A program made the position numbers and the translations under genes. A DNA stretch of 64,000 nt from Arcticibacter tournemirensis. Its GTDB lineage: Bacteria; Bacteroidota; Bacteroidia; Sphingobacteriales; Sphingobacteriaceae. Below the pieces are notes generated by a model that made no database searches, was not told the origin of the DNA, and worked only from the letters and a program-made list of their open reading frames with translations. The DNA is taken from positions 5,084,001-5,148,000 of the forward strand of contig NZ_VFPL01000001.1 in the NCBI RefSeq assembly GCF_006716645.1, in the 5' to 3' direction. This document shows, piece after piece, positions 40,835-60,743 of the stretch; the stretch's first letter is position 1; the number at the start of each line of letters is the position of its first letter.

Positions 40835-41001
40835 AATGTTTTTATTTGGTAGATTATAGATATAAAAAGTAACGCCTCGAAAAATCATTTGTTTTAAAGA
40901 TTTTAAAGTGCAGCAGCCCTCTCTTCGGCGAGCAGCAGCTTTGGGCTTACACTTTTGTCCTCTTATCCCTTTTCCTTATCTTTGGATTGTAACTCATCAC
41001 C

Positions 41002-41586
41002 ATGCTAAAAAAACGTATTGCCATCTTTGCATCCGGTTCGGGCTCGAATGCCCAGAAGATAATGGAACATTTCAAAAAACACGCCGATGCAGAAGTAGCC
41101 ATTGTACTTTCAAATAATCCAAATTCATACGTTTTGCAGCGCGCCGATAATTTTGAGATCCCGTCGCATGTATTCGACAGGTTTGAATTTTACAAAACAG
41201 ATAATATCGTTACCCTCCTTAAAAAAATGGAGATTGATATTATAGTGCTGGCCGGTTTCGTATGGTTAATTCCGGAAAACCTTTTAAAGGCATTTCCTAA
41301 TAAGATCATCAATATTCATCCGGCGCTTCTTCCCAAATATGGAGGCAAAGGAATGTATGGCGACAACGTTCATAAGGCCATACTTGCAAATCACGAATCC
41401 GAATCGGGTATTACTATTCATTTTGTAAACGAGAATTTTGATGATGGGGAAATTATCCACCAGTCCCGTTTCAAAATTGAAAAAGGCGATGACATCGAAA
41501 TGATCAAATTTAAAGGTCAACAACTCGAACATCTGCATTATCCAAAAGTGGTAGAAAGCTTATTAAAAAAGATGAAGAGTCTGTAA
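41002..41586 (+). CDS. purN: Phosphoribosylglycinamide formyltransferase
   Basis: 194 residues; transfers a formyl group from 10-formyl-THF to GAR in purine biosynthesis. Signatures: ASGSGSNAQKIMEHF (phosphate binding), IINIHPALLPKYGGKGMYG with catalytic Asn104 and His106, and ENFDDGEIIHQ with Asp148. Length is normal. Another purine gene, purH, lies at 57 kb, not adjacent. An upstream AT-poor leader of about 110 bases has no clear promoter match. Confidence 0.96.
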   Translation: MLKKRIAIFASGSGSNAQKIMEHFKKHADAEVAIVLSNNPNSYVLQRADNFEIPSHVFDRFEFYKTDNIVTLLKKMEIDIIVLAGFVWLIPENLLKAFPNKIINIHPALLPKYGGKGMYGDNVHKAILANHESESGITIHFVNENFDDGEIIHQSRFKIEKGDDIEMIKFKGQQLEHLHYPKVVESLLKKMKSL

Positions 41587-41673
41587 AAGCAGAAATCAGC
41601 TGTCTTTCGGAAATTTTTTGTCGGGTAATGTAATTATTTTATGTTTTACCTCGTCATATCTAAAATCAATCTA

Positions 41674-42219
41674 ATGAAACCATTATTTCCATCTGGTAAA
41701 AACCCTTTCAGTAGTGTTATATGGTCTCATTGTTTTTCTAACTCCACATCATTCACTGCTGTCAGTATTGTCTATGCTATAATTATGGCAATACTTATAG
41801 GCGGATGCAGTCACGACAGAGGCAAAATAAAGCTTCATGCCAGAGATTCTGCTGACAGCGCGATCTCCGGCCACTGGGTACTAATAGACAGTTCCTCAAA
41901 AAGCCAGCAAAGGAGTACATCGTTGGATCGGGATACTCTTACAGCTTTCATCCTGAACGAAGATCATTCAGCAACATTATACAAGAAGGGGCCTGCTGCA
42001 ATTAAAGAAATGGCAGGAAACTGGAAATGGAGTAAAGAAATTAGTGATTCTGCAGGCCGGCCAGTAAAGCAGCATAGCAAAGCGATTGTGATCACTGATC
42101 ACACAACAAACGATTCTATAATCAGCCTCAAAATCACGGGTGATCTGCAGAAAGACGAACCTATATTAAGCATCCCTAATAGTTTATCCTATAAAAAAGA
42201 GCCGGAAAGAACGCACTGA
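41674..42219 (+). CDS. Small hypothetical lipoprotein, lipocalin-like
   Basis: 181 residues if started at the ATG at 41674; an upstream ATG at 41641 is also in frame. A hydrophobic segment ends in AILIGGC, a good lipobox with the Cys about 45 residues in, which is long for a lipoprotein signal. The mature part has GHWVLIDSSS and TAFILNEDHSATLYKKG followed by GNWKWSKE, a pattern seen in Bacteroidota lipocalin-like lipoproteins. Function unknown. It could instead be an unlipidated anchored protein. Confidence 0.6.
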   Translation: MKPLFPSGKNPFSSVIWSHCFSNSTSFTAVSIVYAIIMAILIGGCSHDRGKIKLHARDSADSAISGHWVLIDSSSKSQQRSTSLDRDTLTAFILNEDHSATLYKKGPAAIKEMAGNWKWSKEISDSAGRPVKQHSKAIVITDHTTNDSIISLKITGDLQKDEPILSIPNSLSYKKEPERTH

Positions 42220-43983: not shown

Positions 43984-44012
43984 GAAATGTGATTTAAATT
44001 GACCTGACTTAT

Positions 44013-45731
44013 TTACCATCCCTTATTCTGCTGGTACAATCCTTTACTGTAGTTTATTTGGTTAAGGGGAATGGGTAAGTATTCGTCCCTGCCCTTAGTA
44101 AATTTAGCCTCCGCTAAATGCGCTGACCTTGTCTTTTCAATGCTAAAGTAAGTATTTATTACTTCTGCAGCTATTCCCCATCTTACCAGATCAAAAAACC
44201 GGTAGCCTTCTGTTGCAAACTCCAGCCTGCGTTCCCACCTTAAAGCCTGGCGGGCAAAATCCCGGGTCCAGGTACAATTGATCCCTGGCTTATAGACGTC
44301 GATACCATAGTGAGAAATCGGAGTACCATCGGCTTTTTTCAGCAGAGAGAGACTACCAGCGGCCCGGGTTCTCAATTGATTAATCAGAGGCAAGGCTTCG
44401 TCCTGCCGCCCCAGCTCAATAAGCGCTTCGGCTTTGAACAGTAATACATCATCGTAACGTATTATATCCCAATTCTTAGAGCTTGACATAAAGGGCGGAA
44501 TTTTCTGAAAGGAGGGGTCATCAGGGGCAACAACTTCCTTCATACTGGCAAAGGCATCATAAACTTCAGGAGCCCGCGCCCATGATCTTTGAAAGATGAA
44601 ATTAGCTTTATACTTATAAGGATGTCCCGGAATAGCAACGGTGTGGTCGAGCCGCGGATCAAAAGTTCCGGTAGTATAATCGCCTGAGGCGGCAACATCA
44701 TTACTATTGTATGAGTTATACATTGGAAGGCCTTTTTCATCCGTTTTAAAAGCGTTGATCAAATCGTGACTGGGGACGTGGAATCCACAGCATCCGTATT
44801 CCTGATTCATGGGGTAGCTCAGCTTATGCCCTTCGTCAAGTCTGCCCTTTGGCGTTCCATCATCTTTCGAATACTGAATAGCAAATACAGATTCGGCACT
44901 ATTTTCGTGCTGGGTAAGAAAATTAGCGGCAAAGTCAGTATTTAAGTGATAGTTTCCGGAGTTGATCACCTCGTCGCAAAGATTGTTCACCTCAGTCAGC
45001 AAAGCAGCATCAACAGAAGTCACTGCATTATCTTCATTCTGTTTATATGCCTGATACAACAACGCTTTAGCTAAATAGGCCTTGGCTGCATATTTATCCG
45101 GCCTTCCCGCATCCGTTCTGGTCTGTGGGAGCCGATCGGCCGCATCCCGGAATCCTCCTGTTATTTTATTCCAAAGCTCATCATCAGATAGTGTTCTGTT
45201 AGATACAGAATCATAAGTTGCTTTGGGAACAGTTTCGTCTATATAGGGGACGTATTTAAAGAGTATTTTTGCAAGAAAGTAGAAATGTCCGCGAAGGAAA
45301 TACATTTCTCCCAGGCGCTCCGATTTGAGGGGATAAACAGACTGATCTATTGCATTCAATCTTCTTAACGCGTCATTAACCCGGCCAATACATACATATA
45401 ATCGATACCAAACAAGATCGGTTTTTGAATTATCTACCCGATTTAAAGAGAACGTTTCATAGAGGTGAAAGTCGCCTATATCACCAGGACCGTCTCCACC
45501 TTTATATGTATCTCCGCCACGAATGCTTCCGTAAGGCCACATACTTGAGTATGGGGCCTCGAAGTAGTCATTTCCCAGGCCTGAATAGGCGGCAATTACC
45601 ATTTTATCAACGTTTTCAGGTGTATTAAGATCCTCATCAGATATAACGCCCTGCGGTGTTTCATCCAGAAACCTCTTACATGATGATAAAACCCCAAGAA
45701 TGAGCACGATTATCAGGAATTTACTTTTCAT
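44013..45731 (-). CDS. SusD/RagB family outer-membrane lipoprotein
   Basis: 572 residues from the ATG at 45731. The signal ends in the lipobox GVLSSC, followed by KRFLDETPQGVISDEDL, the standard mature N-terminus. It contains the tetratricopeptide-type helices of SusD (RLGEMYFLRGHFYFLAKILF; YAAKAYLAKALLYQAYKQ) and the C-terminal RWERRLEFATEGYRFFDLVR signature. It acts as the lid over SusC and binds the fructan or its oligosaccharides at the surface. It sits 19 bases after susC. Confidence 0.96.
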   Translation of the reverse strand: MKSKFLIIVLILGVLSSCKRFLDETPQGVISDEDLNTPENVDKMVIAAYSGLGNDYFEAPYSSMWPYGSIRGGDTYKGGDGPGDIGDFHLYETFSLNRVDNSKTDLVWYRLYVCIGRVNDALRRLNAIDQSVYPLKSERLGEMYFLRGHFYFLAKILFKYVPYIDETVPKATYDSVSNRTLSDDELWNKITGGFRDAADRLPQTRTDAGRPDKYAAKAYLAKALLYQAYKQNEDNAVTSVDAALLTEVNNLCDEVINSGNYHLNTDFAANFLTQHENSAESVFAIQYSKDDGTPKGRLDEGHKLSYPMNQEYGCCGFHVPSHDLINAFKTDEKGLPMYNSYNSNDVAASGDYTTGTFDPRLDHTVAIPGHPYKYKANFIFQRSWARAPEVYDAFASMKEVVAPDDPSFQKIPPFMSSSKNWDIIRYDDVLLFKAEALIELGRQDEALPLINQLRTRAAGSLSLLKKADGTPISHYGIDVYKPGINCTWTRDFARQALRWERRLEFATEGYRFFDLVRWGIAAEVINTYFSIEKTRSAHLAEAKFTKGRDEYLPIPLNQINYSKGLYQQNKGW

Positions 45732-45750
45732 ATTCACTAATTTTAAGTTT

Positions 45751-48700
45751 TTAAAATGATACGTTTACTCCGATGGTGGTAATAGTCGGAATAGGGAAAG
45801 CCTGATTTGGGATTTCCGGATCGGCGGCGGTAAATGATTTACTCTTTATAGTAAAGAGATTACTGCCCTGCAAAAAAACGCGCGCTCCCTGGATCCCTGA
45901 CGATTTAAAAAGATTTTTAAGATTATACCCCAGCTGAAGGTTTCTTAATTTTAAATACGAGCCCTTTTCATAAAAATAAGTTGACGCTCGCCCTTCGTTA
46001 TTTCGATCGACTAAAGTTAGTGCCGGAATTTCCGAACTACTATTTTGAGGAGTCCAGGCATTCAGGGTTCTTTCGCCCCAGTTACTGCCCACCCACAGGG
46101 ATGAAAAGTCGGTAAATGTTTTGAATTCATTATAAACATCATTGCCCTGAATACCCTGGAAGAAACAGCTGAAGTCAAAACCTTTGTATCGTAGTTCGAG
46201 ATTAAGCCCATATTGAAATTTAGGATTACCGTCGGCAATGAAGTCGCGGTCTTTATCATCAATAACGTTGTCGCTGTTCAGATCTTTGTACCTTATGCGG
46301 CCAATACCCTTTCCGGTTTGAGCCGGAGAATTGTCCACTTCCTGTTGTGATTTAAACAATCCATCTGCCACATATCCGAAAGAAGAATTAATAGAGCGGC
46401 CAAGAATTGTTTTGTCAGTTCCATTACCGGGGTATGAAGCTAAAACCTGAGAAGGAAGAGAGGTTACTTTGTTCCTGTAGGCGGAAATATTTGCGGTTGC
46501 TGAAAAGGACCACTCCTTTGAAAGGTTTCCGTTATAAGAGAGCAAAAACTCAAGTCCCTTATTTTGCATGGAAGCTCCATTAAACCAATAATTTCCTCCT
46601 TCGCCTAATACAGCGAGGAACCCTGGACTAATTAAAATGTCGGAGGTCTTCTTTACGAAATAATCGACCGATCCGCTGAGGCGATTTCCAAATAAACCAA
46701 AGTCGGCACCCCAGTTCGACTCAGTTGTACTTTCCCACTTCAGTTTATCATTTGCCTGCTGGATCAAAGTAAACCCAGATGGCAGTTGTCCTGAACCTGC
46801 GCCGGTTATATCATAAGCAGATCCACTGTCGAAAGCAAAAGTCTGATCTATTCCATAAATAGCGGAATACAATGCATAAGTAGCGTTATTTGCTATTTCC
46901 TGGTTACCTGATTTGCCCCATCCATACCTAAGCTTAAGATCTGAAAGGATAGTATTGTTTTTCAGGAAAGGCTCCTCGCTGATTCTCCAGCCCAAAGAAA
47001 AGGCAGGAAAAACGCCGTACCTGTTATCTTTACCAAAGCGCGATGATCCGTCCCGGCGAAGAGTAACAGAAGCCAGATATTTATTATCATAAGAATAATT
47101 CCCTTTACCGAAAAAAGACAATAATGAATATCCCGTACCGCTCCCTCCGTTGTCTTTATTAGAGGAACCAGCATCGAGGTAAGCATAATCAATATTCTCC
47201 AGAGCATACCCTTGCCTTGATGCAAAAAAGTTCTGGTTGATATACTTAATCTGTTCATGCCCTAAAACGAAGTCGGCACGATGTTTAGCTGAACTCAACG
47301 TGTAGTTGATCGTGTTCTGCCATACCCAATTACCGTCGTAACCCTGATTGGTGACATTTTGATTAGAGGGGTCAGATAAAAACCCGGAAACGTATGACTT
47401 CCGAAGTGTCCTCTGATAAGATCCGTTATAATCTACGCCAAGACTGGTTCTGAAATGTAAATTTGGAACAACTGCGAAATCGGCATAGGCATTACCGAAA
47501 ACGCGATAGAAATATCCTGAATTTTGCTTGTTGTCTTCTATCAGCCGCACAGGATTATGCCGGTCGGTCATGCCTGGTGCTGGTCCGCCCCATCCCCCAT
47601 CTACGGTGTGTACAGGTACAACTGCCGGCTGTACAAGAGACGTAAAGAGGATATCACCGAGAGGGATTAATGCATTTTTAATGTAAGTAACATTCATGTT
47701 CTCCCCTACCTTCAGCTTATTCTTCCAAAAGCTATAGTCCGAGTTAAACCGGGAGTTAATCTTGTTACTTTTTGAGGATTTAACAATACCCTTATTGTCA
47801 TAATAGCCCACAGAAAAGAGACTATTTCCACGTTCTCCGCTGTTGCTGAGCGAAATATTAACTTGTTGTATCTGGGATGTCTGGCTGATCTCGTCGTACC
47901 AATAGGTATTGGCGGGCTTCATCGTCTTTGCAGCATCAATAAATTCAGGATAAATAATTTTGTTCAGCACCGGGTCATCGAAGTTGCCGTTCCAGTCGTA
48001 CTGATAAATCTGATTGTTATTAGGGTTTGACCGGTCATTTACAGCAGCCTGCCAATACGCCCGTCCTTTCCCATCAGCATCAAGGGTCTTTTGTTTAGAA
48101 ATATAAGATTGAAGAGAGGACGAAACATCGACATCTATTTTGGTATTGCCCTTTTTAGCTTTTTTTGTTGTAATAATAATCACTCCATTTGCCGCCCTAG
48201 AACCATAAATTGTAGCAGACGAGGCGTCTTTTAACACCTGAAATGATTCAATGTCGTTGGGATTAAGTTCCTGGAGCCCCCGTTTAGTAGGAATACCGTC
48301 GATTACATACAAAGGATCGTTGTTTCCGAGGGTTCCTACCCCCCTTATTCGTACAGTTGCCCCACCTTGAGGCGATCCATCGCTGGTAATAAACACTCCG
48401 GGCACTCGACCCTGCAACGCTTTCACAGGATTGCCCACTGGAATATCTTTAATCTCATTTACATCAACAACCGACACCGCTCCGGTTAGATCAGCCTTCT
48501 TCTGACTCTGGTAACCGGTAACCACAACTTCATTCAGAGACCGGGGAGCACCTGTTAATACAACATCTATTACAGTCCTGCTATCGACGGTTATCTCTCT
48601 CGATACATAACCAATATAAGAAAATACAAGAGTAGACCCCGCATTTGGAACCTTAATAGAATAACGGCCTTCGGCACTTGAACTGGCACCGATGTTCTGA

Positions 48701-48834
48701 CCCCGTACCAAAATACTTACCCCCGGTAACGACTCGCCCTTCTCATCGGTGATCTTGCCAGAAATAGTGATACTTTGCGACCTTGCAACATGAATGCAAC
48801 AAGTCATAGCAATTAGAAAATAAATAATTCTCAT
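45751..48834 (-). CDS. SusC/RagA family TonB-linked outer-membrane transporter
   Basis: 1027 residues. Signal peptide (ends ARSQ), then a carboxypeptidase-regulatory-like domain (about 20-100; SGKITDEKGESLPGVSILVR), a TonB box region and plug (LNEVVVTGYQSQKKADLTGA; VRIRGVGTLGNNDPLYVIDG), then the 22-strand barrel ending in a terminal Phe (TTIGVNVSF). It imports fructo-oligosaccharides with energy from TonB-ExbBD, capped by the SusD lipoprotein encoded next. Heads the SusC-SusD-GH32 part of the operon. Confidence 0.96.
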   Translation of the reverse strand: MRIIYFLIAMTCCIHVARSQSITISGKITDEKGESLPGVSILVRGQNIGASSSAEGRYSIKVPNAGSTLVFSYIGYVSREITVDSRTVIDVVLTGAPRSLNEVVVTGYQSQKKADLTGAVSVVDVNEIKDIPVGNPVKALQGRVPGVFITSDGSPQGGATVRIRGVGTLGNNDPLYVIDGIPTKRGLQELNPNDIESFQVLKDASSATIYGSRAANGVIIITTKKAKKGNTKIDVDVSSSLQSYISKQKTLDADGKGRAYWQAAVNDRSNPNNNQIYQYDWNGNFDDPVLNKIIYPEFIDAAKTMKPANTYWYDEISQTSQIQQVNISLSNSGERGNSLFSVGYYDNKGIVKSSKSNKINSRFNSDYSFWKNKLKVGENMNVTYIKNALIPLGDILFTSLVQPAVVPVHTVDGGWGGPAPGMTDRHNPVRLIEDNKQNSGYFYRVFGNAYADFAVVPNLHFRTSLGVDYNGSYQRTLRKSYVSGFLSDPSNQNVTNQGYDGNWVWQNTINYTLSSAKHRADFVLGHEQIKYINQNFFASRQGYALENIDYAYLDAGSSNKDNGGSGTGYSLLSFFGKGNYSYDNKYLASVTLRRDGSSRFGKDNRYGVFPAFSLGWRISEEPFLKNNTILSDLKLRYGWGKSGNQEIANNATYALYSAIYGIDQTFAFDSGSAYDITGAGSGQLPSGFTLIQQANDKLKWESTTESNWGADFGLFGNRLSGSVDYFVKKTSDILISPGFLAVLGEGGNYWFNGASMQNKGLEFLLSYNGNLSKEWSFSATANISAYRNKVTSLPSQVLASYPGNGTDKTILGRSINSSFGYVADGLFKSQQEVDNSPAQTGKGIGRIRYKDLNSDNVIDDKDRDFIADGNPKFQYGLNLELRYKGFDFSCFFQGIQGNDVYNEFKTFTDFSSLWVGSNWGERTLNAWTPQNSSSEIPALTLVDRNNEGRASTYFYEKGSYLKLRNLQLGYNLKNLFKSSGIQGARVFLQGSNLFTIKSKSFTAADPEIPNQAFPIPTITTIGVNVSF

Positions 48835-49063
48835 TTGACTAATTGGTTTTTAAAGCCCGTGAAATACTATGAATAGGACACGGCGCTTGGTTTGCGATAC
48901 TCATTTCTAATGAGTTGATTCGTATTTTTCGATAGGATTTACCATGGGAGTTGGATACTGTATCCGGTTCTCAACCCATAAATCGTCTTTTCTTCATTTT
49001 TTTAAGTTTAACTGGTTAATTGATTTAGTTAATGGGACTATTTTCCATAGCCGGATTCGTTGG
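48835..49063 (-). promoter_or_regulatory. Leader region of susC
   Basis: 229-base gap after the fructokinase gene. It holds two small hairpins, ACTCAT-ttcta-ATGAGT (48899-48915) and GGATAC-t-GTATCC (48952-48964). No TAnnTTTG box was found. A promoter or an operator for the divergent hybrid regulator would be expected here by analogy with other fructan loci (inference). Confidence 0.35.
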
Positions 49064-49975
49064 CTAAAGCCTGACGCTTTTGTAATCGTTCATAAACAGA
49101 TCAAGATCTGACACTGTATAAGAAGGGCAGGCTCCATAATGAGACGTGACAAATCCGGCCAGCGCCGACGCATAATTAAGCGATTCGCTTATTGTATTTC
49201 CGCGGCACCTTTTAGCGAGAAATGCAGCAAGAAAAGAGTCTCCACTGCCTACTGTATCTTTTACAGCTACTTTGTGTGAAGGAACATCATATTGGCGATC
49301 CCCATTGTAATACGAAGCCCCTGCTATCCCTTTTGTTACCAGAACCTCACTGATTCTAAAGCGATCCTGAAGCTGCTTTACATTCTCCTGTTCTGTATCA
49401 AAAGATCCACCTGTTAGTTTGGCAATGATCTTCAGTTCATCACTATTCAGTTTAACGAGGTCCGCCCTTGTAAGTAGCTCCGTTAAGTTCTCAGGTGTAT
49501 AATATGGCTCACGTAAATTAATATCCAGAACCTTGTATTGTGATGCCTCAAGCAAACCAAAAAGAGTTTTACGAGTTACGTTATTCCTGCTTGACAAGCT
49601 TCCAAAGACCAGCGCCCCGGCATTTGAAACAAGAGGAATCAGGTGATCGTCGGGTTGTATGAAATCCCAGGCAACCGGAAAGCGTATATCGTACCTTATA
49701 TCGTGGTCCTCCATCACAATGGCTTCAACAGTTGAAGTTGGGTATGCCTGGTCCATCTGACAGAAATCTGATTGTACCCCAATATCATTCAGGAATCGTA
49801 AAAGCCCATTCCCATCGTCGTCATTTCCGACACGACTAATCAAGAGGCTTTCTATCCCCAGTTGCTTCAGGTGGTAGGCTACATTCATAGGGGCACCGCC
49901 CGGTTTTTTACCTGAAGGAAGGTTGTCCCAAAGAATCTCTCCAAAACAAACGACTTTAATATCTCTGTCATTCAT
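49064..49975 (-). CDS. Fructokinase (PfkB family)
   Basis: 303-residue ribokinase-fold sugar kinase. N-terminal GGAPMNVAYHLKQLG binds sugar; the C-terminal ATP/anion-hole motif is KDTVGSGDSFLAAFLA with the catalytic Asp. Context between the MFS sugar porter and susC in a fructan locus argues for fructose as substrate, as for the equivalent gene in the Bacteroides thetaiotaomicron fructan locus. The gene follows the transporter by 16 bases. Confidence 0.92.
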   Translation of the reverse strand: MNDRDIKVVCFGEILWDNLPSGKKPGGAPMNVAYHLKQLGIESLLISRVGNDDDGNGLLRFLNDIGVQSDFCQMDQAYPTSTVEAIVMEDHDIRYDIRFPVAWDFIQPDDHLIPLVSNAGALVFGSLSSRNNVTRKTLFGLLEASQYKVLDINLREPYYTPENLTELLTRADLVKLNSDELKIIAKLTGGSFDTEQENVKQLQDRFRISEVLVTKGIAGASYYNGDRQYDVPSHKVAVKDTVGSGDSFLAAFLAKRCRGNTISESLNYASALAGFVTSHYGACPSYTVSDLDLFMNDYKSVRL

Positions 49976-49991
49976 ATGAATATTTTTTAGG

Positions 49992-51320
49992 TTAATGCAT
50001 GACTACGTTTTCCTGAATCTGCTCAAGCGATTTCCCCTTCGTCTCCGGCATTACACGCCATACAAATAATAATTGCAAGATCATCATGATGCTAAAAAAC
50101 AGGAAGGTGTTGCCGCCACCCAGCTTTTCTGCGAAGTATGGAAAGCTGAATGCAATGGCTGCGGCCATTACCCAATGAGTAAAACTGCCGAGGGTCTGAC
50201 CTTTTGCCCGGACTTCATTGGGGAAGATTTCAGAAATAAATACCCAGATGACAGCCCCTTGTGAAAAGGCAAAGAAGGCAACATAGATCATTAGATAAAA
50301 TGTTATCAGAAACCCGTTAAAATGGCCCGAGTAGAACGTGAATGATACCATGGAAAGCGACGCTATCAGACCAAAAGAGCCTATAAGCATGAGTGTCCTC
50401 CGCCCTATCTTATCGATAAAACCTATGGCAATAAGCGTAAAGGTGAAATTCACTAATCCAATGCCAACCGTAGACAATAAAGAAGTATGTGCACCAAGAC
50501 CAGCCATTTCAAATATCCGGGGAGCATAATAGATAATGGCGTTTATTCCTGAGACCTGATTGAAGATCGCAAAAAGTATAGCTAACATAACGGGGAACTT
50601 GTACTTTTTCGACAAAAGAGGTTCCTGGATACTCAGCTTTTGATGCTGGCCGGAAAGAGTGATAGCCTCCAGTTCTTTTTCATATGAGAGAGGACTAATT
50701 CGCTTCAGGACTTCACGGGCCTCATCAAAACGCTGCCTCTGTAAAGCGAGCCATCTGGGGCTCTCAGGGATAAAACGAATTAATACGAGATATATAAGAG
50801 AAGGGAAAGACTGAATACCCAGCATCCATCTCCATGAAGTCTCACCACTTTGCCCGATCAGATAGTTCGACAGATACGAAATCAGTATTCCAAGTACCAC
50901 GTTAAACTGGAATAAGGCAACAAGGCGCCCTCTTGACCGTGCAGGAGATATTTCGGATATATATATAGGGGCAGTCACAGAAGAAACTCCTACCCCAATG
51001 CCACCGGCAAAACGAAAGAATAAAAACACATACCAATCCGATGCGAGTGCTGTGCCGAGAGATGAAAGCAGATATAATAAAGCAACCAGGTATAACGTAT
51101 TCTTACGACCAATCCGGTCGGAGGGAATAGCACCTAATAAAGCTCCCAATACTGTTCCAATTAAAGCGATAGATACCGTTAATCCGTGTTCGATGACATT
51201 TAGGCTCCAATATTGCTGTATAGATTTTTCAGCGCCTGAGATTACAGCGGTGTCAAATCCAAATAAGAACCCTCCTAAGGCCACTACAAGCGACCACGCT
51301 ATTACGTAATTTTTTTTCAT
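49992..51320 (-). CDS. MFS sugar porter (probable fructose/H+ symporter)
   Basis: 442 residues, twelve hydrophobic segments. Sugar-porter signatures: SDRIGRKNTLY between TM2 and TM3, SRGRLVALFQFNVVLGILIS in TM5 region, PESPRWLALQ after TM6, FNQVSGINAIIYYAPRIFEM in TM7 and the C-terminal PETKGKSLEQIQ. It imports monosaccharide released in the periplasm; fructose is inferred from the fructokinase and GH32 neighbours. First gene of the leftward fructan operon. Confidence 0.94.
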   Translation of the reverse strand: MKKNYVIAWSLVVALGGFLFGFDTAVISGAEKSIQQYWSLNVIEHGLTVSIALIGTVLGALLGAIPSDRIGRKNTLYLVALLYLLSSLGTALASDWYVFLFFRFAGGIGVGVSSVTAPIYISEISPARSRGRLVALFQFNVVLGILISYLSNYLIGQSGETSWRWMLGIQSFPSLIYLVLIRFIPESPRWLALQRQRFDEAREVLKRISPLSYEKELEAITLSGQHQKLSIQEPLLSKKYKFPVMLAILFAIFNQVSGINAIIYYAPRIFEMAGLGAHTSLLSTVGIGLVNFTFTLIAIGFIDKIGRRTLMLIGSFGLIASLSMVSFTFYSGHFNGFLITFYLMIYVAFFAFSQGAVIWVFISEIFPNEVRAKGQTLGSFTHWVMAAAIAFSFPYFAEKLGGGNTFLFFSIMMILQLLFVWRVMPETKGKSLEQIQENVVMH

Positions 51321-51629
51321 GAATTATCCAGGTTTACCAATGCAAATAAGAAGGGAAATCGGCCGGCCGGCGTTAAATTGCATTCCAAAGTCTTTAAACT
51401 TTAAAAAAGGCCAAAAAAACATCTAAGTAACTGGATATCTGCCGAATAATTATCGATTACAGATTCAGACGCCCGGCTAAAGTTTAAACATGTTACACGT
51501 TTCTTTAAAATTGATTCATAAAGCGCCATTCAAACTTATTCAGAGCTAATGACTAAGAATCTGGAATTTTAAGTACTCAATATATTTTCTTAATTTTCTC
51601 AAACCGGTATCGCATTATCTCAACTCCTT
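51321..51629. promoter_or_regulatory. Divergent control region of the fructan locus
   Basis: 309 bases between the MFS gene and the hybrid regulator. No gene is seen. It includes the perfect palindrome CGGCCGGCCG (51360-51369), the local repeats CTTTAAACTTTAAA and AAAGTTTAAACATG, and long AT-rich stretches. No exact TAnnTTTG box on either strand. Operators for the regulator are likely here but I cannot place them. Confidence 0.4.
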
Positions 51630-54458
51630 ATGATAAAGATTAGAAAGGGAAGCGCCTTTGAAATGCTTATGAATTTTCTGATGCTCCCGTTGGTCATCTG
51701 CCTGAGTACTGTTCTCATCCAGGGATGCACTACCTCTTCAAAAAATGATGAACCAGAGTACACCATCGGGTTTTCGCAATGTATAGGTTCTGATGAATGG
51801 AGAAGAACCATGCTGGATGAAATGAAAAGGGAGCTTTCATTTTATCCAGGTGTTAAGTTATTGTATGAAGATGCCGAAGGAAATAGCAAAAAGCAGATAG
51901 GACAGGTCAAAGAAATGCTCCGCAAAAAAATCGACTTGCTTATCATTTCGCCTAATGAAGCCCGGCCTTTAACGCCGGTGGTAGAAGAAGCCTTTAATAG
52001 AGGAATACCGGTAATTATAATCGACAGGAAAATATCCTCAAACTTATATACTTCCTATGTAGGCGGCAACAACTTTGAAATTGGAAGAATAGCGGCGGAA
52101 TATATAGCCGGCAAACTGAACGGCAAAGGTAAGATACTGGAAGTAATGGGATTACCGGGATCCTCTCCGGCAATTGAGAGACAAAGGGGATTCAATGAAG
52201 GTATCAGTAAATACCCCGGCGTCCATATCGCAAAACAAGTGTATGGGAACTGGCTAAAACGCGAAGCTGAAAAAGAAGTTGCAAAAGTAATATCCGCTTA
52301 TCAGGATATTGATGTGGTCTTCGCCCACAATGATCAAATGGCATTGGGTTCATATCAAGCTCTTAAGAGATCGTTGCCTGCAAGCAAGATTAAAATAGTG
52401 GGGGTTGATGCACTACCTGGCGCAAGCAACGGCTTGAGATACGTTTCAGACGGCATTCTCTATGCATCTATGCTCTACCCTACCGGAGGTAAAGAGGCTA
52501 TCAGAACAGCATTGGCCATCTTAAATCACATGCCGTTTGATAAAGAGAATATCCTTAAAACGCTGGTTGTCGATTCAAGCAATGTTCAATTGATGAAGCT
52601 GCAATCAGACAAAATCAACAGTCAGCAAATAGACATCGAACGACAGCAGGAGATGCTGGAAGAACAAAGGAAGATCTACCACAACCAACAGATCTTTCTC
52701 AATATACTGGTGGTAAGCCTCGTTCTGGCGATTGTTTTTGGAGGCGTGGCTTTTTATGCGCTAAACGAAAACTGGAAAAACAATAAGGCACTTGAAATCA
52801 AGAATGAGGAAATAATAAAACAACAGCAGCAGCTCATCGAAATGTCTGCCAAGGCAAAAGCCGCTTCAGAAGCCAAATTTAATTTTTTCACTAATATTTC
52901 GCATGAGTTCAGAACACCCCTTACCTTGATTATGACATCGCTCGAAGATCTGTTTTCCGATTCCCGTATGACAGCCGGAACAAGAAAACATCTCTATATG
53001 ATTAGTAAAAACGCAAGCAGGCTGCTGAAACTGATCAATCAACTCGTTGATTTCCGTAAAATTGAATATGACAAGATGAGCATTAGCGTATCGGAAAACA
53101 ATATCATTTCGTTTATCAGCGAGATCATGAGTTCCTTTAAGGAGGTAGCCCATAAAAGGAATATTGATATACGGTTAGTAAGCAGAGATAAGGAATTAAA
53201 TATATGGTTTGATGTCAATATGCTTGACAAAGTAATTTTCAACCTCTTATCCAATGCCTTTAAATTTACGAACGACAATGGCAGGGTTCTGATAACAATA
53301 TCCTCAAAACCAGAGGAAGGCATTGCTGAAATAGTTATAGAAGATAACGGCATCGGCATGTCGGAAGAAGCGGTGTCTCATGCTTTTGATCTTTTTTACC
53401 AGGGAGATACCGATCGGTCTAAAGGATCGGGAATCGGGCTTTCTTTATCAAGAGAAATTGTTATTCTCCATAAAGGGACAGTAACTGTTAACAGCACAAA
53501 GGGAAAAGGCACCGCCTTTAAAATAACACTACCTCTTGGAGATAATCACATTGGGCAGAAGGAGAAAATTTACGGAGCAGGGCAGTACATGCCGGATGAG
53601 GATACCATCAGACTATATACCGCAGAACTTAAAGATTCGGGGCTTAGCGATCATCATGAAGAGACGGCGATAGTTACAAAGGAACATTCTGTATTAATTA
53701 TTGAAGACAACGACGATATGCGGCAGTTCCTGCAGGAGAAATTGTCGGAACACTACGAAGTATATACCGCGGCAAATAGTACAGAAGGGCTACACGAAGC
53801 TTTTGAAAAGATACCCGATCTTATTATTTCAGATGTAGTAATGCCGGGTCAATCGGGCACTCAACTTACGCAGATATTAAAAAATGATATCCGGGCTTCT
53901 CACATCCCGATTATTCTTCTCAGCGCAAGAGCAAACCCCGAACAACAGCTCGAAGGAATCAAAGCTCTTGCCGACACCTATATTACCAAACCTTTTAAAA
54001 TCCAGTTTCTACTGGAAGCCATCAGAAATCTCTTAAATAACCGCCAGTTACTTAGGTCGCGATATACAAGTGAACTTCCCGTTGATGCAAGAACCAGTAC
54101 TTCAGGCAAACTCGATAAGAAGTTTCTGACAGTATTTTCAGGCATAGTAGAAAGCAATATCTCTAACGAAAACCTAAACGTGGAAGATATTTGCAAATCA
54201 ATAGGTATCTCCCGCGTGCAGCTATATCGCAAGGTGAAAGCTCTTCTGGGCTGTAGTGTGTCAGAATACATTATTAACAAGCGGTTAAAAAAGGCTAAAT
54301 ACCTGTTATTAAATGAGGATCTTTCGATTGCAGAAATTACTTACAAGGTAGGGATCTCCTCTCCTACTTATTTTTCTACACTATTTAAAGCAAAGTACGG
54401 ATGTACACCTTCGGAGTTCAAAAGGAAGAATGTTGCAGAAAAGCTTATTCATAGCTAA
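51630..54458 (+). CDS. Hybrid two-component regulator with periplasmic sugar-binding domain (fructan HTCS)
   Basis: 942 residues. Order: hydrophobic N-terminus ending LIQGC (Cys33, a lipobox); LacI/RbsB-type periplasmic sugar-binding domain (about 44-320, GGNNFEIGRIAAEYIAGKL, VFAHNDQMALGSYQAL); coiled stretch; membrane segment (about 355-377); HisKA with His425 in FFTNISHEFRTPLTLI; HATPase (N box SNAFKFT, G box DNGIGMS); receiver with Asp735 in IISDVVMPGQSG; AraC-type HTH to the end. The architecture is that of BT1754, the fructose-sensing regulator of the B. thetaiotaomicron fructan locus, so fructose is the probable signal. Divergent from the operon it should control. Confidence 0.94.
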   Translation: MIKIRKGSAFEMLMNFLMLPLVICLSTVLIQGCTTSSKNDEPEYTIGFSQCIGSDEWRRTMLDEMKRELSFYPGVKLLYEDAEGNSKKQIGQVKEMLRKKIDLLIISPNEARPLTPVVEEAFNRGIPVIIIDRKISSNLYTSYVGGNNFEIGRIAAEYIAGKLNGKGKILEVMGLPGSSPAIERQRGFNEGISKYPGVHIAKQVYGNWLKREAEKEVAKVISAYQDIDVVFAHNDQMALGSYQALKRSLPASKIKIVGVDALPGASNGLRYVSDGILYASMLYPTGGKEAIRTALAILNHMPFDKENILKTLVVDSSNVQLMKLQSDKINSQQIDIERQQEMLEEQRKIYHNQQIFLNILVVSLVLAIVFGGVAFYALNENWKNNKALEIKNEEIIKQQQQLIEMSAKAKAASEAKFNFFTNISHEFRTPLTLIMTSLEDLFSDSRMTAGTRKHLYMISKNASRLLKLINQLVDFRKIEYDKMSISVSENNIISFISEIMSSFKEVAHKRNIDIRLVSRDKELNIWFDVNMLDKVIFNLLSNAFKFTNDNGRVLITISSKPEEGIAEIVIEDNGIGMSEEAVSHAFDLFYQGDTDRSKGSGIGLSLSREIVILHKGTVTVNSTKGKGTAFKITLPLGDNHIGQKEKIYGAGQYMPDEDTIRLYTAELKDSGLSDHHEETAIVTKEHSVLIIEDNDDMRQFLQEKLSEHYEVYTAANSTEGLHEAFEKIPDLIISDVVMPGQSGTQLTQILKNDIRASHIPIILLSARANPEQQLEGIKALADTYITKPFKIQFLLEAIRNLLNNRQLLRSRYTSELPVDARTSTSGKLDKKFLTVFSGIVESNISNENLNVEDICKSIGISRVQLYRKVKALLGCSVSEYIINKRLKKAKYLLLNEDLSIAEITYKVGISSPTYFSTLFKAKYGCTPSEFKRKNVAEKLIHS

Positions 54459-54481
54459 TAAACCATCCATGAATGATCAGC

Positions 54482-54514
54482 AAAAAGGGTGCCTCTCAAA
54501 AGAAGCACCCTTTT
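54482..54514. terminator. Bidirectional hairpin terminator
   Basis: AAAAGGGTGC and GCACCCTTTT form a ten-base stem with a twelve-base loop, flanked by A and T tracts. It lies between the hybrid regulator and the convergent anti-sigma fusion gene and should serve both. Confidence 0.88.
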
Positions 54515-54531
54515 CTATAAGCACACTTATA

Positions 54532-56097
54532 TTACTTAAGAGCGTATTTATATACCACTGTTTTTCCTTCGCTGTTTTGCCCGGCGAGATAAGGTACTCC
54601 ATCGGCAGATATCTGCATATCGAAATTATTAACAGTCCCGCTGATCACGAGCCTGGCTTTATTCCAACTATTCAAATCTTTATTGAAGGTCTTTACATAT
54701 AATCCTGCCGCGGTGCTTTCAACCTGTGGCTGGACCCATGCAAAGAATAAGGTACCATCGGGATGTACAGAAAGAGCAAAGTTATCAGAAGTACCAAGAA
54801 CAGGAACTCCCTGTCCGACTTCTTTCCAGACACCGCCCTCGAGCTTCATCACGTGGTCAACCCTTTTACCAGATACCGATTCCTGATAGGCAGCATACGT
54901 GGTGCCATCGGGCGCAACTGCAGGGCTAACCATCTGATATCCGGCAGTAGCATTAGCGCCGAATGAACTCGTGCCCACAATATTCCAGGCAGAACCATTT
55001 AAAACAAACACAGATGGCCTGTTGGTATTGGTCGAACGGTCCATTACTCCAAGATATAACTTACCGTTTGCCTTGATCAGCTGGGTATAAAAAGCCAGGA
55101 TGCCAGGAGTGCTGTCGTATGACCATTGTCCATTTTTAAAGCTCATCACAACCACTGCCCGGTTAGCTATTCCCGGCTCGGGAGTAGCGCCGTCTTTAGT
55201 CATCGAAATGTAGGGTATGTTCGAGTCGTCAAGTGCTATTGAGAGGTAACTGGGCTTGAACAATGTAAACCGGCTGCTACCTACAACAGACCAGGTACCA
55301 GTATATTTAATTACAGTTACTTTCTGCTCACCACCCATGTAATCCTTATAGGCAACATAGGTATTTCCTGCTTTATCGTATGCGATGGCAATATTATCAG
55401 CTCTGAATTCCGACACGCCCTTTTGCTCTCCCAGGAATTGCCACCCGCTCGCGGTAAGAGCGGCAACAGCGCACTTCTTATCATTTGTGGCAATAGATGC
55501 CCCATTTTCATCGGTTCCTGTACGTTGATAGGCAATTGCAGGAAGGTTCGTTACTGGGTTGATAGCCATCTTTATCCCTGCAGCGCCTGATCCTGTAACG
55601 TTCGATCCTATTAGCTGCCATTCATATTCTTTAATATATGTGATGGTGACTGAATATCTCTGGGACTCAGTGGATCCTGGCTCTGACACTTCATATACCA
55701 GCTTATTTTCCGACGATTCAAGGGAGCTGGAAAAGTCGTTCTTACTTACTCTGCTTTGTTGCTCTACACCGGCCACCTTTACGACACACCCTTCCGAGAC
55801 CTCAAAACGGGCAGCAAGCTGCGACAGATCTCCTGAAAGCAGCGGTAATATTCGATTGGCTTTATGTTGTGTTTTGACTGCCACTTTTTGCCAGGCTTGG
55901 TCGACATCTACAGAAGAAAAGAAGTCCAAATCCTTTTGGACCGATTCGCTATCTCTAAAAGATTCTAACAGCTTCCTGTTTTCTTTGTCCTCATTGAGCC
56001 ATTTTTCGAGCGATTCACTCTCCGTTGGACTCAATTTACCCTTGAGGAAACGGGCAATTAAGCCGGCATATTCAAAAATACTCTTCTGCATTTTCAT
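54532..56097 (-). CDS. FecR-type anti-sigma domain fused to a DUF5018-like domain and a seven-bladed propeller
   Basis: 521 residues. Residues 1-80 match the cytoplasmic N-terminus of FecR anti-sigma proteins (LIARFLKGKLSPTESESLEK, NRKLLESFRD, VDVDQAWQKV). Where a membrane helix and the FecR periplasmic domain should follow, the sequence passes directly into an Ig-like DUF5018-type segment (about 83-154, RFEVSEGCVVKVAGVEQQ, YSVTITY) normally found in exported lipoproteins. Seven repeats with Trp at 160, 219, 269, 325, 371, 424 and 478 and AYxxxGxxYxAY-like strands then indicate a complete beta-propeller. I see no signal peptide or membrane helix. The ECF sigma gene lies 112 bases upstream. 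Likely a gene fusion; function unknown. Confidence 0.8.
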   Translation of the reverse strand: MKMQKSIFEYAGLIARFLKGKLSPTESESLEKWLNEDKENRKLLESFRDSESVQKDLDFFSSVDVDQAWQKVAVKTQHKANRILPLLSGDLSQLAARFEVSEGCVVKVAGVEQQSRVSKNDFSSSLESSENKLVYEVSEPGSTESQRYSVTITYIKEYEWQLIGSNVTGSGAAGIKMAINPVTNLPAIAYQRTGTDENGASIATNDKKCAVAALTASGWQFLGEQKGVSEFRADNIAIAYDKAGNTYVAYKDYMGGEQKVTVIKYTGTWSVVGSSRFTLFKPSYLSIALDDSNIPYISMTKDGATPEPGIANRAVVVMSFKNGQWSYDSTPGILAFYTQLIKANGKLYLGVMDRSTNTNRPSVFVLNGSAWNIVGTSSFGANATAGYQMVSPAVAPDGTTYAAYQESVSGKRVDHVMKLEGGVWKEVGQGVPVLGTSDNFALSVHPDGTLFFAWVQPQVESTAAGLYVKTFNKDLNSWNKARLVISGTVNNFDMQISADGVPYLAGQNSEGKTVVYKYALK

Positions 56098-56209
56098 TAA
56101 TTCCTAATAAAGAAACCTGAAAACAGAAACAGGGTGACAAACACTAAAAAAATATTAACAAGTGCGGGTTTATTTTACAAGAAAACAGAAAAAGAAATAA
56201 ATAAAAGAC

Positions 56210-56767
56210 TTATTTAAAAACAAATAAAGCGAAAACCAAAAACACCTCAGGATTCAACTTCAAACGAAGCAATTGAAGCCCTCTTTTCTTTTGGGTTTTA
56301 ACAGTATTTATACTCACGCCTAGCTTCTCTGCTATTTTAGGATTTTTAAGTCCTTCCAGATAGCCTAACTTGAATACCTTTTGGCAGCCATCGGGCAGAG
56401 TATCTATAACACGGTAGATTTCATCCATTACCTCTGAACGGATAATGGCATGTAAAAAACGGGCGTCTTCACTCGGATCGGGATCCTGGGATAGGATATA
56501 TTTTTCCTCAACTTTCTGTCTTCTAAGGTAGTTAAGACTTGCATTGCGAATACTCGAGTACAAAAAGTTTCTGATTGCTCCCGGATGAGATGATATTTCG
56601 GCACGCAAATGCCAATACCTGATAAAACACTCCTGAACTATATCTTCGGAGTGGCTTTTATCTCCTAATATTTGAAATGCGAAATGACAAAGCCTGGGAT
56701 AATAGCATCTAAACAATTCCTCAAGCGATGGAACAATTACGTCTTCGTTAGGCCACTGGTCTTCCAT
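56210..56767 (-). CDS. ECF-type RNA polymerase sigma factor (Bacteroidetes expansion family)
   Basis: 185 residues from the ATG at 56767. Sigma region 2 includes LFRCYYPRLCHFAFQILGDK and SEDIVQECFIRYWHLR; region 4 contains LPDGCQKVFKLGYLEGLKNP and the HTH IAEKLGVSINTVKTQKKRG. Such factors normally pair with a FecR anti-sigma and a SusC-like receptor. Here the downstream partner is the atypical anti-sigma/propeller fusion, and no SusC/SusD pair follows, so its signal and target genes are unclear. The end is hydrophobic (VFLVFALFVFK). Confidence 0.93.
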   Translation of the reverse strand: MEDQWPNEDVIVPSLEELFRCYYPRLCHFAFQILGDKSHSEDIVQECFIRYWHLRAEISSHPGAIRNFLYSSIRNASLNYLRRQKVEEKYILSQDPDPSEDARFLHAIIRSEVMDEIYRVIDTLPDGCQKVFKLGYLEGLKNPKIAEKLGVSINTVKTQKKRGLQLLRLKLNPEVFLVFALFVFK

Positions 56768-57166
56768 ATTCAATTCGCACCGATAATATCAATAAAATGG
56801 TTAACAGAACGCTCCAACACAGGCTCATACTATAACCACTTTTGCCACTTCCAAAGTCAATATGAATTTCAGGGAGAGGTAGTGATCTGCCGGTCCGGCA
56901 GAAATCTTTCTAAAATTAGAAAACATTGAATTAAAAAAGAAATATTTTGAAAGATTTTCAGCAAAAAGGCCAACCAAGTTAAAACTTCACAACGTTCCGT
57001 GCATTCTATTGTATTGATCATTATGCATTTTTTAATAAAAAAAGTATTGAAGGCTGTTACTCCAGAAAGCACGATATTAACATTCAATTCTTTTTTTAAC
57101 ATTCCTTTTTATTCAAATTTTTTAACTCACAAAAATTCTATCTTTGCAGCTTAAAAATCTCACTCA
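56768..57166. other. Intergenic region between the sigma factor and purH
   Basis: About 400 bases without a credible gene. It contains a small hairpin CTGCCG-gtc-CGGCAG (56887-56901), long A/T-rich runs, and near its right end the purH promoter box. The sigma factor promoter must lie in its left part but no TAnnTTTG match was found there. Confidence 0.6.
57139..57146 (+). promoter_or_regulatory. Candidate -7 element for purH
   Basis: TATCTTTGC, an exact TAnnTTTG match, ends 20 bases before the purH ATG at 57167. The sequence upstream is T-rich without a clear -33 TTG. Confidence 0.55.
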
Positions 57167-58693
57167 ATGAACCATCCTGTTAAGATAAAAAATGCTTTAA
57201 TTTCAGTGTATTATAAAGACGGACTGGAGCCGTTAATAAAAAAATTAAATGAATCGGGAGTAACGTTTTACTCTACAGGTGGTACGGAGAAGTTTATAAA
57301 AAGTATGGGATGCGAGGTTGTGCCCGTTGAGGACCTCACCGGTTATCCTTCTATTTTAGGAGGCCGGGTAAAAACATTACATCCTAAAGTTTTTGGAGGG
57401 ATTCTTTCCAGAAGGGACCTGCTGGAAGATAAAGAGCAGAGTACGCAATATGAGATTCCTGAAATTGACCTGGTCATTGTAGACCTTTATCCATTTGAAG
57501 AAACTGTAAAAGCGGGGCTGCCTGAAGACGAAATTATAGAAAAGATCGACATTGGAGGCATCTCGCTTATCCGTGCTGCAGCTAAAAATTTCAACGACGT
57601 AGTGATTGTTGCCTCAAAGAATGACTACAGCACGCTTCTGGACATTTTACAGCAAAATGAAGGCAGCACGTTTCTGGAACAACGGCGCGAATTTGCAAAA
57701 AAGGCATTTAACATCTCTTCGCACTACGATACTGCGATATTCAACTATTTCAACCAGGAAGATCCGTTACAGGTTTTCAAACAGAGTATGCAGCAGGTAA
57801 AGACACTGCGTTATGGAGAGAACCCCCACCAGAAAGGTTATTTCTACGGTGATCTGGATGCCCTGTTCACTCAGCTTAACGGAAAAGAACTTTCGTACAA
57901 TAATCTTGTAGACGTGGATGCTGCGGTAGCTCTAATCGACGAATTTACTGAACCTACATTTGCTATTCTTAAACACACCAATGCTTGTGGAGTTGCTACC
58001 AGATCAAATCTTCTGACCGCCTGGAAAGATGCGCTGGCATGCGATCCGGTTTCGGCCTTTGGTGGTGTGATTATCTGCAATGGTGAGGTTGACGAAGAAA
58101 CTGCTATAAAGATCAACAAACTCTTTTTTGAAGTTCTTATTGCACCATCCTTCAGCGCGGATGCCCTAGAAGTTCTTACAGAAAAGAAAAACCGCATCCT
58201 GCTGCAACGTAAAGAGGTAAAACTCCCCGGAAAGCTGTTTAAGACGCTTTTAAATGGAGTGATTGAGCAGGATAAGGATTCTGTTATTGAAGGCCCGGGA
58301 CAAATGACTCCGGTTACTGTAAATAAACCAACCGAAGCGGAGCTTCAGGATCTTTTCTTTGCAAACAAACTGGTAAAACATACTAAATCAAATACGATTA
58401 TCCTCGCAAAAAACGGACAGCTTCTTGCCAGCGGAGTAGGTCAAACCTCACGAGTTGATGCACTGAAACAGGCCATTGAAAAAGCAAAATCCTTTAATTT
58501 CGCTTTGGATGGAGCAGTAATGGCATCCGATGCTTTTTTCCCTTTTCCAGATTGTGTAGAGATCGCAGCTGAGGCAGGTATTACAGCCGTTCTCCAGCCT
58601 GGAGGTTCTGTAAAAGATCAGCTTTCTATAGACATGGCAAACGAAAAAGGAATTTCCATGGTGATGACCGGAGTGCGACATTTTAAACATTAA
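57167..58693 (+). CDS. purH: Bifunctional AICAR formyltransferase/IMP cyclohydrolase
   Basis: 508 residues catalysing the last two steps of IMP synthesis. The N-terminal IMP cyclohydrolase (methylglyoxal-synthase-like) domain shows YSTGGTEKFIKSMG and GGRVKTLHPKVFGGIL. The AICAR transformylase half has RYGENPHQKGYFYGD, ILKHTNACGVATRSN with catalytic Lys-His, and the C-terminal SDAFFPFPDCVEIAAEAGI and GGSVKDQLSIDMANEKGI. Full family length. It is followed by the mreB gene with a separate promoter candidate. Confidence 0.97.
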   Translation: MNHPVKIKNALISVYYKDGLEPLIKKLNESGVTFYSTGGTEKFIKSMGCEVVPVEDLTGYPSILGGRVKTLHPKVFGGILSRRDLLEDKEQSTQYEIPEIDLVIVDLYPFEETVKAGLPEDEIIEKIDIGGISLIRAAAKNFNDVVIVASKNDYSTLLDILQQNEGSTFLEQRREFAKKAFNISSHYDTAIFNYFNQEDPLQVFKQSMQQVKTLRYGENPHQKGYFYGDLDALFTQLNGKELSYNNLVDVDAAVALIDEFTEPTFAILKHTNACGVATRSNLLTAWKDALACDPVSAFGGVIICNGEVDEETAIKINKLFFEVLIAPSFSADALEVLTEKKNRILLQRKEVKLPGKLFKTLLNGVIEQDKDSVIEGPGQMTPVTVNKPTEAELQDLFFANKLVKHTKSNTIILAKNGQLLASGVGQTSRVDALKQAIEKAKSFNFALDGAVMASDAFFPFPDCVEIAAEAGITAVLQPGGSVKDQLSIDMANEKGISMVMTGVRHFKH

Positions 58694-58757
58694 ATCGTAT
58701 AAATAGGGATAAGACAGATAAGAGCCTTTAACAATCTCTTATTTAAAAAAAAGAATT

Positions 58758-58765
58758 TAACTTTG
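58758..58765 (+). promoter_or_regulatory. Candidate -7 element for mreB
   Basis: TAACTTTGC fits TAnnTTTG and lies 31 bases before the mreB ATG at 58797. No -33 TTG is evident. It would drive the whole mreB-rodA cluster. Confidence 0.45.
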
Positions 58766-58796
58766 CATACTTTTTTAAATTTTAAACACTTCCCTG

Positions 58797-59819
58797 ATGG
58801 GTTTATTTAATTGGTTTACACAAGAGATTGCTATTGACCTGGGTACAGCAAATACCCTCATCATACATAACGATAAAGTGGTGGTTGACGAACCGTCGAT
58901 TGTTGCCTTCGACCGCACAACAAATAAAATCATCGCCATTGGCCGCCAGGCAATGCAGATGGAAGGTAAGACGCACGAAAATATCCGTACTGTCCGGCCT
59001 CTTAAAGATGGTGTTATTGCCGATTTTAACGCGGCAGAGCACATGATCAGGGGAATGATCAAAATGATCAACAACGGAAAAGGATGGTTTTTCCCTTCTT
59101 TAAGGATGGTAATTTGTATCCCCTCCGGCATTACAGAGGTTGAAAAGCGAGCGGTAAGAGATTCAGCCGAAATAGCGGGAGCAAAGGAAGTTTACCTGAT
59201 CCATGAGCCAATGGCTGCTGCTGTCGGTATCGGAATAGATGTGGAAGAGCCGATGGGAAATATGATTATCGACATCGGTGGCGGAACTACCGAAATCGCG
59301 GTAATTGCACTTTCAGGTATTGTATGCGACCAGTCAATCCGCGTTGCGGGCGACAATTTCGACAGCGATATCGTGCAATATATTCGTCGCCAGCATAATA
59401 TCATGATTGGAGAACGTACCGCCGAAAAAATAAAGATTGAAGTCGGCGCTGCACTTCCCGAATTAACCGATCCTCCTGCTGACTTTGCTGTACAGGGACG
59501 TGATCTGATGACCGGTGTGCCGAAACAAATTACCGTTTCTTATACCGAAATAGCCCATTGTCTTGATAAGTCTATATCCAAGATCGAAGAGGCTATTCTG
59601 AAAGCGCTTGAAATAACGCCTCCTGAGCTGTCAGCTGATATTTACCAGACAGGTATTTATCTTACCGGCGGTGGCGCCCTGTTACGCGGACTGGATAAAA
59701 GGGTAGCAGCGAAAACAAAATTACCAGTTCACGTGGCCGAAGATCCTTTGAGAGCAGTAGTTCGCGGAACAGGTATAGCCCTTAAGAATATCGGAGGCTT
59801 TAAATTTTTAATGCAATAA
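58797..59819 (+). CDS. mreB: Rod shape-determining protein MreB
   Basis: 340-residue bacterial actin that organizes lateral cell-wall synthesis. ATP-binding phosphate-1 loop IAIDLGTANTLI, phosphate-2 IIDIGGGTTEIAVIALSGI and the adenosine motif ITPPELSADIYQTGIYLTGGGAL are present. The N-terminal GLFNWFTQE could form the membrane-binding helix. First gene of a canonical mreB-mreC-mreD-mrdA-rodA cluster, which implies a rod-shaped cell. Confidence 0.97.
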   Translation: MGLFNWFTQEIAIDLGTANTLIIHNDKVVVDEPSIVAFDRTTNKIIAIGRQAMQMEGKTHENIRTVRPLKDGVIADFNAAEHMIRGMIKMINNGKGWFFPSLRMVICIPSGITEVEKRAVRDSAEIAGAKEVYLIHEPMAAAVGIGIDVEEPMGNMIIDIGGGTTEIAVIALSGIVCDQSIRVAGDNFDSDIVQYIRRQHNIMIGERTAEKIKIEVGAALPELTDPPADFAVQGRDLMTGVPKQITVSYTEIAHCLDKSISKIEEAILKALEITPPELSADIYQTGIYLTGGGALLRGLDKRVAAKTKLPVHVAEDPLRAVVRGTGIALKNIGGFKFLMQ

Positions 59820-59822
59820 ATG

Positions 59823-59906
59823 AGTTATAAGTTGTAAGTAGTACGTTATAAGTATTTAAACCTTGTAATTTTTCTACTTACAACTTATAACCTACAACTT
59901 ACAACT
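59823..59906. repeat. Inverted repeat with 18-bp perfect arm between mreB and mreC
   Basis: GTTATAAGTTGTAAGTAG (59824-59841) is the exact complement of CTACTTACAACTTATAAC (59874-59891). A further CTACAACTTACAACTC follows. The words match the repeat in the rpsN-rpsH spacer. It fills the 90-base gap between two co-transcribed genes. Confidence 0.85.
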
Positions 59907-59909
59907 CAT

Positions 59910-60743
59910 ATGCGTAATCTCTGGCTTCTTATCAGTAAGTATAACGCATTTTTCCTTTTCATTATTTTTTTCATTGTCTCGGTTGCCCTTATCATACGAA
60001 ATAACTCTTTTCAGAGAGCCGGGGTACTCAATTCATCAAACCAAATCATAGGTCAGGCGTATGAACGCATGAACCAGTTCCAGGCTTACCTGAGGCTTGC
60101 CAAGGTAAACGACAGTCTTGCTGCAGAAAATGCACGACTCAGGGGCCTGTTAAAAAATGCTTTTTTTGATGATAGTGTTCAGCAAAAAACAGTTAAGGAT
60201 ACTGTGGCCAGACAACAATATACCTTTATTGTTGCGCGCGTAATTAATAACTCTGTTCATCAAAAAGACAATTACCTTACTATTAACAGGGGGATGCGTC
60301 ATGGAATTAACAGAGGGATGGGTGTTATCAGTTCTTCGGGTATCGTCGGAATTGTGAAAGACGTTTCGAGCAACTTCGCAACAATCACATCGCTTTTAAA
60401 CAGTGACACGAAGATCAGCGCAAGTATCGCAGAGAATCAGGCATTCGGATCGCTCGTTTGGGGCGAAGGGAACCACAATCCTCAAATAGCCCTTTTGCAG
60501 GACATTCCGAATCATATCATAGTAAAAAGAGGGCAGCATGTAGTGACATCGGGATACTCTACTTTATTCCCCGCCGGACTCCCTATCGGAAGAGTCATCG
60601 GTACAAAAGCAAAAGGAGGGGATAGTTTTCCCGAAATAGAGGTAATGCTTCATACTGATTTTTCAACGTTACAATACGTGTATGTAATCAGAAACGTATT
60701 TGCTGCAGAAAAAGAAAACTTAGAAACCGGGAGTAAACAGTAA
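59910..60743 (+). CDS. mreC: Rod shape-determining protein MreC
   Basis: 277 residues. One N-terminal membrane helix (about 13-30, FFLFIIFFIVSVALII), a coiled coil (about 60-90) and the periplasmic two-barrel domain (GIVGIVKDVSSNFATITSLL; SGYSTLFPAGLPIGRVIG). MreC activates PBP2-RodA from the periplasm. The stop overlaps the mreD start by one base. Confidence 0.95.
   Translation: MRNLWLLISKYNAFFLFIIFFIVSVALIIRNNSFQRAGVLNSSNQIIGQAYERMNQFQAYLRLAKVNDSLAAENARLRGLLKNAFFDDSVQQKTVKDTVARQQYTFIVARVINNSVHQKDNYLTINRGMRHGINRGMGVISSSGIVGIVKDVSSNFATITSLLNSDTKISASIAENQAFGSLVWGEGNHNPQIALLQDIPNHIIVKRGQHVVTSGYSTLFPAGLPIGRVIGTKAKGGDSFPEIEVMLHTDFSTLQYVYVIRNVFAAEKENLETGSKQ

Follow-up and report, generated by a model that had tools for sequence, protein, structure and literature searches.

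Comparison with intact operons shows that an in-frame deletion of about 9.6 kb within a single nutrient-uptake operon of Arcticibacter tournemirensis joined the cytoplasmic head of a FecR-type regulator to the end of a propeller lipoprotein. We favor, at a probability of about 0.5, a reading in which this deletion gave rise to a cytoplasmic fusion protein whose head binds the neighboring sigma factor, making it a regulator blind to signals, with the propeller as a passenger. The gene is nature's version of a classic laboratory construct, truncated FecR: the head is off the membrane, and the sigma gene and a probable target promoter are kept. An active gene would allow a direct test of whether released FecR heads of Bacteroidota activate or inhibit their sigma factors, and would be an example of a single deletion turning a surface-sensing system internal. 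The features of the window, the whole stretch of 64,000 nucleotides that was analyzed, are as follows.

56210..56773, minus strand: intact ECF sigma factor gene, 187 aa, TTG start (TIGR02985, 148 bits, regions 2 and 4)
56113..56137, minus strand: conserved element upstream of fecR, a putative sigma-dependent promoter (TCACCC ... TTTTCAGGTTT), matching the intact operons
54532..56097, minus strand: fused gene of 521 codons, an intact open reading frame
55858..56097, minus strand: FecR-type cytoplasmic head, residues 1 to about 73-80, from homology, conserved columns and predicted helices
Somewhere within 55834..55881, minus strand: deletion junction, from the end of FecR homology and the start of lipoprotein homology
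55624..55836, minus strand: truncated second Ig-like repeat of the lipoprotein, from comparison with the parent
54535..55623, minus strand: beta-propeller with seven Trp motifs, from homology, AlphaFold, fold matches and conserved positions
54482..54514, minus strand: probable terminator, a strong hairpin with a T tract 3' of the fused gene, from sequence and RNA fold

The fused gene adjoins the ECF sigma gene (56210-56773) on the same strand, and its frame is open over all 521 codons (54532-56097), as a preliminary description made from the sequence had reported. FecR homology stops at about residue 73 and lipoprotein homology begins at about residue 88, which places the junction between the two. 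A site at about 55850-55870, where a frameshift or assembly chimera would have counted against that description, falls within the junction stretch (55834-55881), and the frame is intact across the gene. The RNA fold of 54462-54530, around the probable terminator, has an energy of -25.8 kcal/mol.

The assignment of the N-terminus to the FecR type is borne out by homology. Residues 2-72 match the FecR of a relative (E 1.4e-14), residues 6-90 match another FecR of the same genome (E 4.3e-9), and 14 of the 16 conserved columns of FecR heads are kept. Helices are predicted at residues 7-18, 24-36, 38-48 and 51-62 in the full-length AlphaFold model. Pfam, NCBIfam and PHROGs scans of the fusion returned nothing significant, and the Pfam families PF04773 (FecR) and PF16344 (FecR_C), both found in an intact relative, are missing from it.

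The remainder of the protein derives from the lipoprotein. Residues 76-519 match that of a relative at E 7.5e-86, and the seven Trp motifs can be read directly from the sequence. The propeller part is modeled by AlphaFold with a mean pLDDT of 87.6, and its closest structural matches in the PDB are sialidase-like, lectin-like and kelch propellers which, at about 10-18% sequence identity, are matches of fold only; a PDB sequence search with the fusion found no match. These results uphold the earlier view of the tail as a seven-Trp propeller. They differ on the segment that precedes it, which had been called DUF5018-like. Only part of the second of the parent's two Ig-like repeats, namely its C-terminal part, is retained, and Pfam finds no DUF5018 (PF16410) match in the fusion. 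A sub-threshold DUF5018 match (17.6 bits against a cut-off of 38.2) lies instead in the first Ig-like repeat of the intact parent, which is deleted here. Residues 75-130 have a pLDDT below 50 in the full-length model, in a run with almost no aligned relatives over that segment; taken from the model, this means a predicted flexible joint or unfolded remnant.

Neither parent's route to the envelope is recognizable in the fusion. Measured as the best mean over 19 residues, hydropathy reaches at most 0.94, compared to 1.4-2.1 for the membrane helix of the relatives' FecR proteins and 1.65-1.96 for the lipoprotein signal peptides, and neither sequence nor hydropathy reveals a signal peptide, a lipobox Cys or a membrane helix. 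The preliminary description, which had listed an overlooked helix as a way in which it might be wrong, was right that both the helix and the signal peptide are absent. The fusion has lost the membrane helix and periplasmic portion that belong to FecR, together with the lipoprotein's signal peptide. The product should therefore remain cytoplasmic, alongside its sigma factor, in agreement with the location proposed at the outset.

The parent of the fusion is a conserved operon ordered ECF sigma, FecR, SusC, SusD, small protein, M16 peptidase and Ig/propeller lipoprotein, with phosphoesterase as an optional last gene, and the comparison reveals this operon together with a promoter-like element that its members share. 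For example, in Desertivirga xinjiangensis (G011) the FecR and propeller matches lie 10 kb apart on one contig, in a region that forms a single operon from sigma through phosphoesterase and includes a 158-aa protein. The same gene order is found in Pedobacter genomes and, at greater distance, in G056, G276, Pontibacter mangrovi and Membranihabitans marinus. The sigma-FecR-SusCD-M16-propeller operon (L033:5033-18503) is common to several families of Bacteroidota, and the 158-aa protein whose gene separates those of SusD and the M16 peptidase (L033:11828-12304) is conserved in it and has no Pfam match.

The window retains gene 1 (sigma), the head of gene 2 (FecR) and the end of gene 7 (the propeller lipoprotein), and the span that corresponds to the junction measures 9540-9671 bp in nine intact operons. 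In a propeller tree the window is sister to the Pedobacter/Desertivirga group (support 100/99), and in a sigma tree its sigma is sister to the sigmas of the operon (85/83). The congruence of the two trees indicates that both ends share one history, of which an internal deletion is the simplest account. Thus, of the two origins first suggested, deletion or recombination, the former stands, and recombination between unrelated loci is not needed since both halves come from one operon. Recombination between two operons was considered because a congener (G002, L091:10900-12689) has a similar sigma/FecR pair, preceded by the same promoter-like element, with a different SusC; it is less likely, given that the window's sigma groups with those of the propeller operon.

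No close copy of the missing SusC or M16 genes was found elsewhere in the genome, and thus no sign of their relocation. The best full-length SusC match is 32-33% identical, compared to 54-59% among the Pedobacter/Desertivirga operons, and the best M16 match is 34% identical, compared to 66-71%. For SusD, the small protein and the phosphoesterase, the search covered the flanks of the fused gene, where tblastn with the operon proteins turned up no credible remnants. SusC-like matches number 162 in this genome, and a few of them contain internal stop codons (e.g., L102:1-4500).

Among the genomes searched, only this one carries the fusion. Each of the 43 related propeller loci checked encodes a separate lipoprotein with a hydrophobic N-terminus followed by Cys, and FecR heads match only separate FecR genes. 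Among 400 genomes of the family, 32 others have a propeller match, none in a fused-looking frame. A single-sequence scan of genome contigs with the fusion found no relative, and a profile scan of genome contigs found 25 loci and no fusion. The search for homologs with the same junction, which the preliminary description had proposed, was run without turning up a second genome. No paper on anti-sigma factors carrying WD40 propellers came up in a literature search.

The regulatory setting of the fused gene is partly preserved. In intact operons the gap between sigma and fecR holds a 25-bp element, TCACCC-NN-WTT-NNN-NTTTC-RRG-TTT, that usually starts 36-38 bp before fecR (at one locus, L107, the fetched DNA was too short to contain all of it). 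Positions 56113-56137 on the minus strand are a perfect copy and the sole perfect match in the genome, and no perfect match is expected in shuffled window sequence. Allowing two mismatches, two sites were found elsewhere in the genome; a reversed control pattern likewise gave two matches. From this pattern of conservation, the element is probably the promoter used by the sigma factor. The sigma itself retains 64 of the 73 columns that are invariant among the sigmas of the operon. Upstream of the sigma gene, six of seven intact operons read carry an exact TTG-N20-TAnnTTTG, and the seventh (L082) has one change. The best score for this pattern upstream of the window's sigma (56774-57166) is 7 of 9 positions, and because the near-perfect motif of the operon is missing, the sigma/fusion pair may be weakly expressed.

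Work on model systems suggests how such a protein could act. Fragments 1-59 to 1-85 of the Escherichia coli FecR bind FecI and render it active without inducer, and in Pseudomonas an FpvR fragment inhibits (PMC9249621). A FecR N-terminal fragment of this kind is produced by RseP cleavage (PMC8144685). In the present case, the deletion of about 9.6 kb placed the FecR head, in frame, on the end of an exported lipoprotein, and the resulting protein, which lacks the FecR helix, the periplasmic part and the signal peptide, should be left in the cytoplasm. The head probably still binds the neighboring sigma factor. As it ends before the membrane helix and would be cytoplasmic, it should act on sigma regardless of the outer-membrane signal, much as a released FecR N-terminal fragment would. 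By analogy, the fusion is probably a soluble protein that regulates its sigma factor while blind to the signal; activation and inhibition are both possible. The protein would be made from a promoter that this sigma factor probably recognizes. Its propeller most likely rides along as a folded passenger, although a role as a sensor is possible.

The fusion resembles several known systems in part. As in regulators of the FecI/FecR type, the sequence for a cytoplasmic head immediately follows an ECF sigma gene, but the fusion lacks their membrane helix, PF04773 and PF16344. RseP-released or truncated FecR fragments (E. coli 1-59 to 1-85) likewise consist of a soluble head ending before the helix, with inducer-free action expected for both, whereas the fusion is, as predicted from its sequence, a natural gene product with a tail of about 440 residues. 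The propeller is the same as that of the operon's Ig/propeller lipoprotein in Pedobacter, Desertivirga and others (32-48% identity), which has a signal peptide, a Cys and two Ig-like repeats where the fusion has only part of the second. Dma anti-sigma factors, also from Bacteroidota, similarly combine an anti-sigma head with a large beta-structured C-terminal domain; however, they have a membrane helix, a disordered tether and a beta-barrel (PMC13088901), none of which is present in the fusion, whose tail is a propeller.

The fused gene is either young or maintained, and it may accordingly be a rewired switch or a young relic. The intact frame had been taken to favor a maintained gene. Although the frame is indeed intact, an open frame alone is no proof: in a simulation of neutral drift with substitutions only, the frame remained open with a probability of 0.46, 0.24 and 0.03 at 1, 2 and 5% divergence, respectively, and with indels added this probability was 0.09 at 2%. 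It is possible, if on the unlikely side, that the gene is a recent dead relic, in which the deletion wrecked the operon and the open frame is too young to have decayed. The loss of SusC and M16, the single occurrence of the fusion among the genomes searched, the lack of a good match to the usual promoter before the sigma gene and the simulated survival of neutral frames at 1 and 2% divergence are all consistent with this. Such a relic fits less well with the conserved positions kept in the promoter-like element, the sigma gene, the FecR head and the propeller, the last of which retains 37 of 40 conserved positions, on a par with intact relatives. Conservation of the Ig remnant relative to the propeller also speaks against it. 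The ratio is 0.75, the lowest of 38 sequences (bootstrap 0.53-0.98), based on 61 columns and on a comparison picked after the alignment was seen. The greater divergence of the Ig remnant is suggestive of time elapsed after the two parts were joined and of a propeller that has remained under constraint.

Alternatively, selection could be keeping the gene as a new regulator: a soluble anti-sigma factor that controls sigma in a closed loop, with the propeller sensing a ligand or partner in the cytoplasm; we consider this doubtful. The sigma gene, its only recognizable target element and the fusion do form a compact unit, and the propeller is conserved, is predicted to be well folded and has sugar-binding propellers among its fold matches. 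Yet no second genome searched carries the fusion, a propeller that evolved for export would need to function in the cytoplasm, and the contrast between Ig remnant and propeller is no more than suggestive. It is correspondingly improbable that the deletion created a self-contained cytoplasmic circuit composed of an ECF sigma, a single target promoter and a FecR-head/propeller reader of a cytoplasmic ligand or partner. An assembly artefact that dropped 9.6 kb is very unlikely: although the fusion is known from a single assembly, the locus lies inside a 5.19-Mb contig of a genome that is in 2 contigs and 100% complete, the missing SusC and M16 have no close copy elsewhere in it, and the reading frame is preserved across the join.

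In the five congeners that were read, the neighborhood of purH contains relatives of the genes at 34257-42219 of the window (one contig, that of G002, is short), and nothing like 42292-56773 was found between purH and these relatives. Because this segment has no counterpart in the congeners, the fusion lies in a variable stretch of the genome. An Rfam scan of 48000-60000 found no match. The fusion shares the variable stretch with a fructan-type cluster that is missing there in the congeners read. This cluster (42292-54458) consists of genes for GH32, SusD, SusC, a sugar kinase, a sugar transporter and a hybrid two-component sensor.
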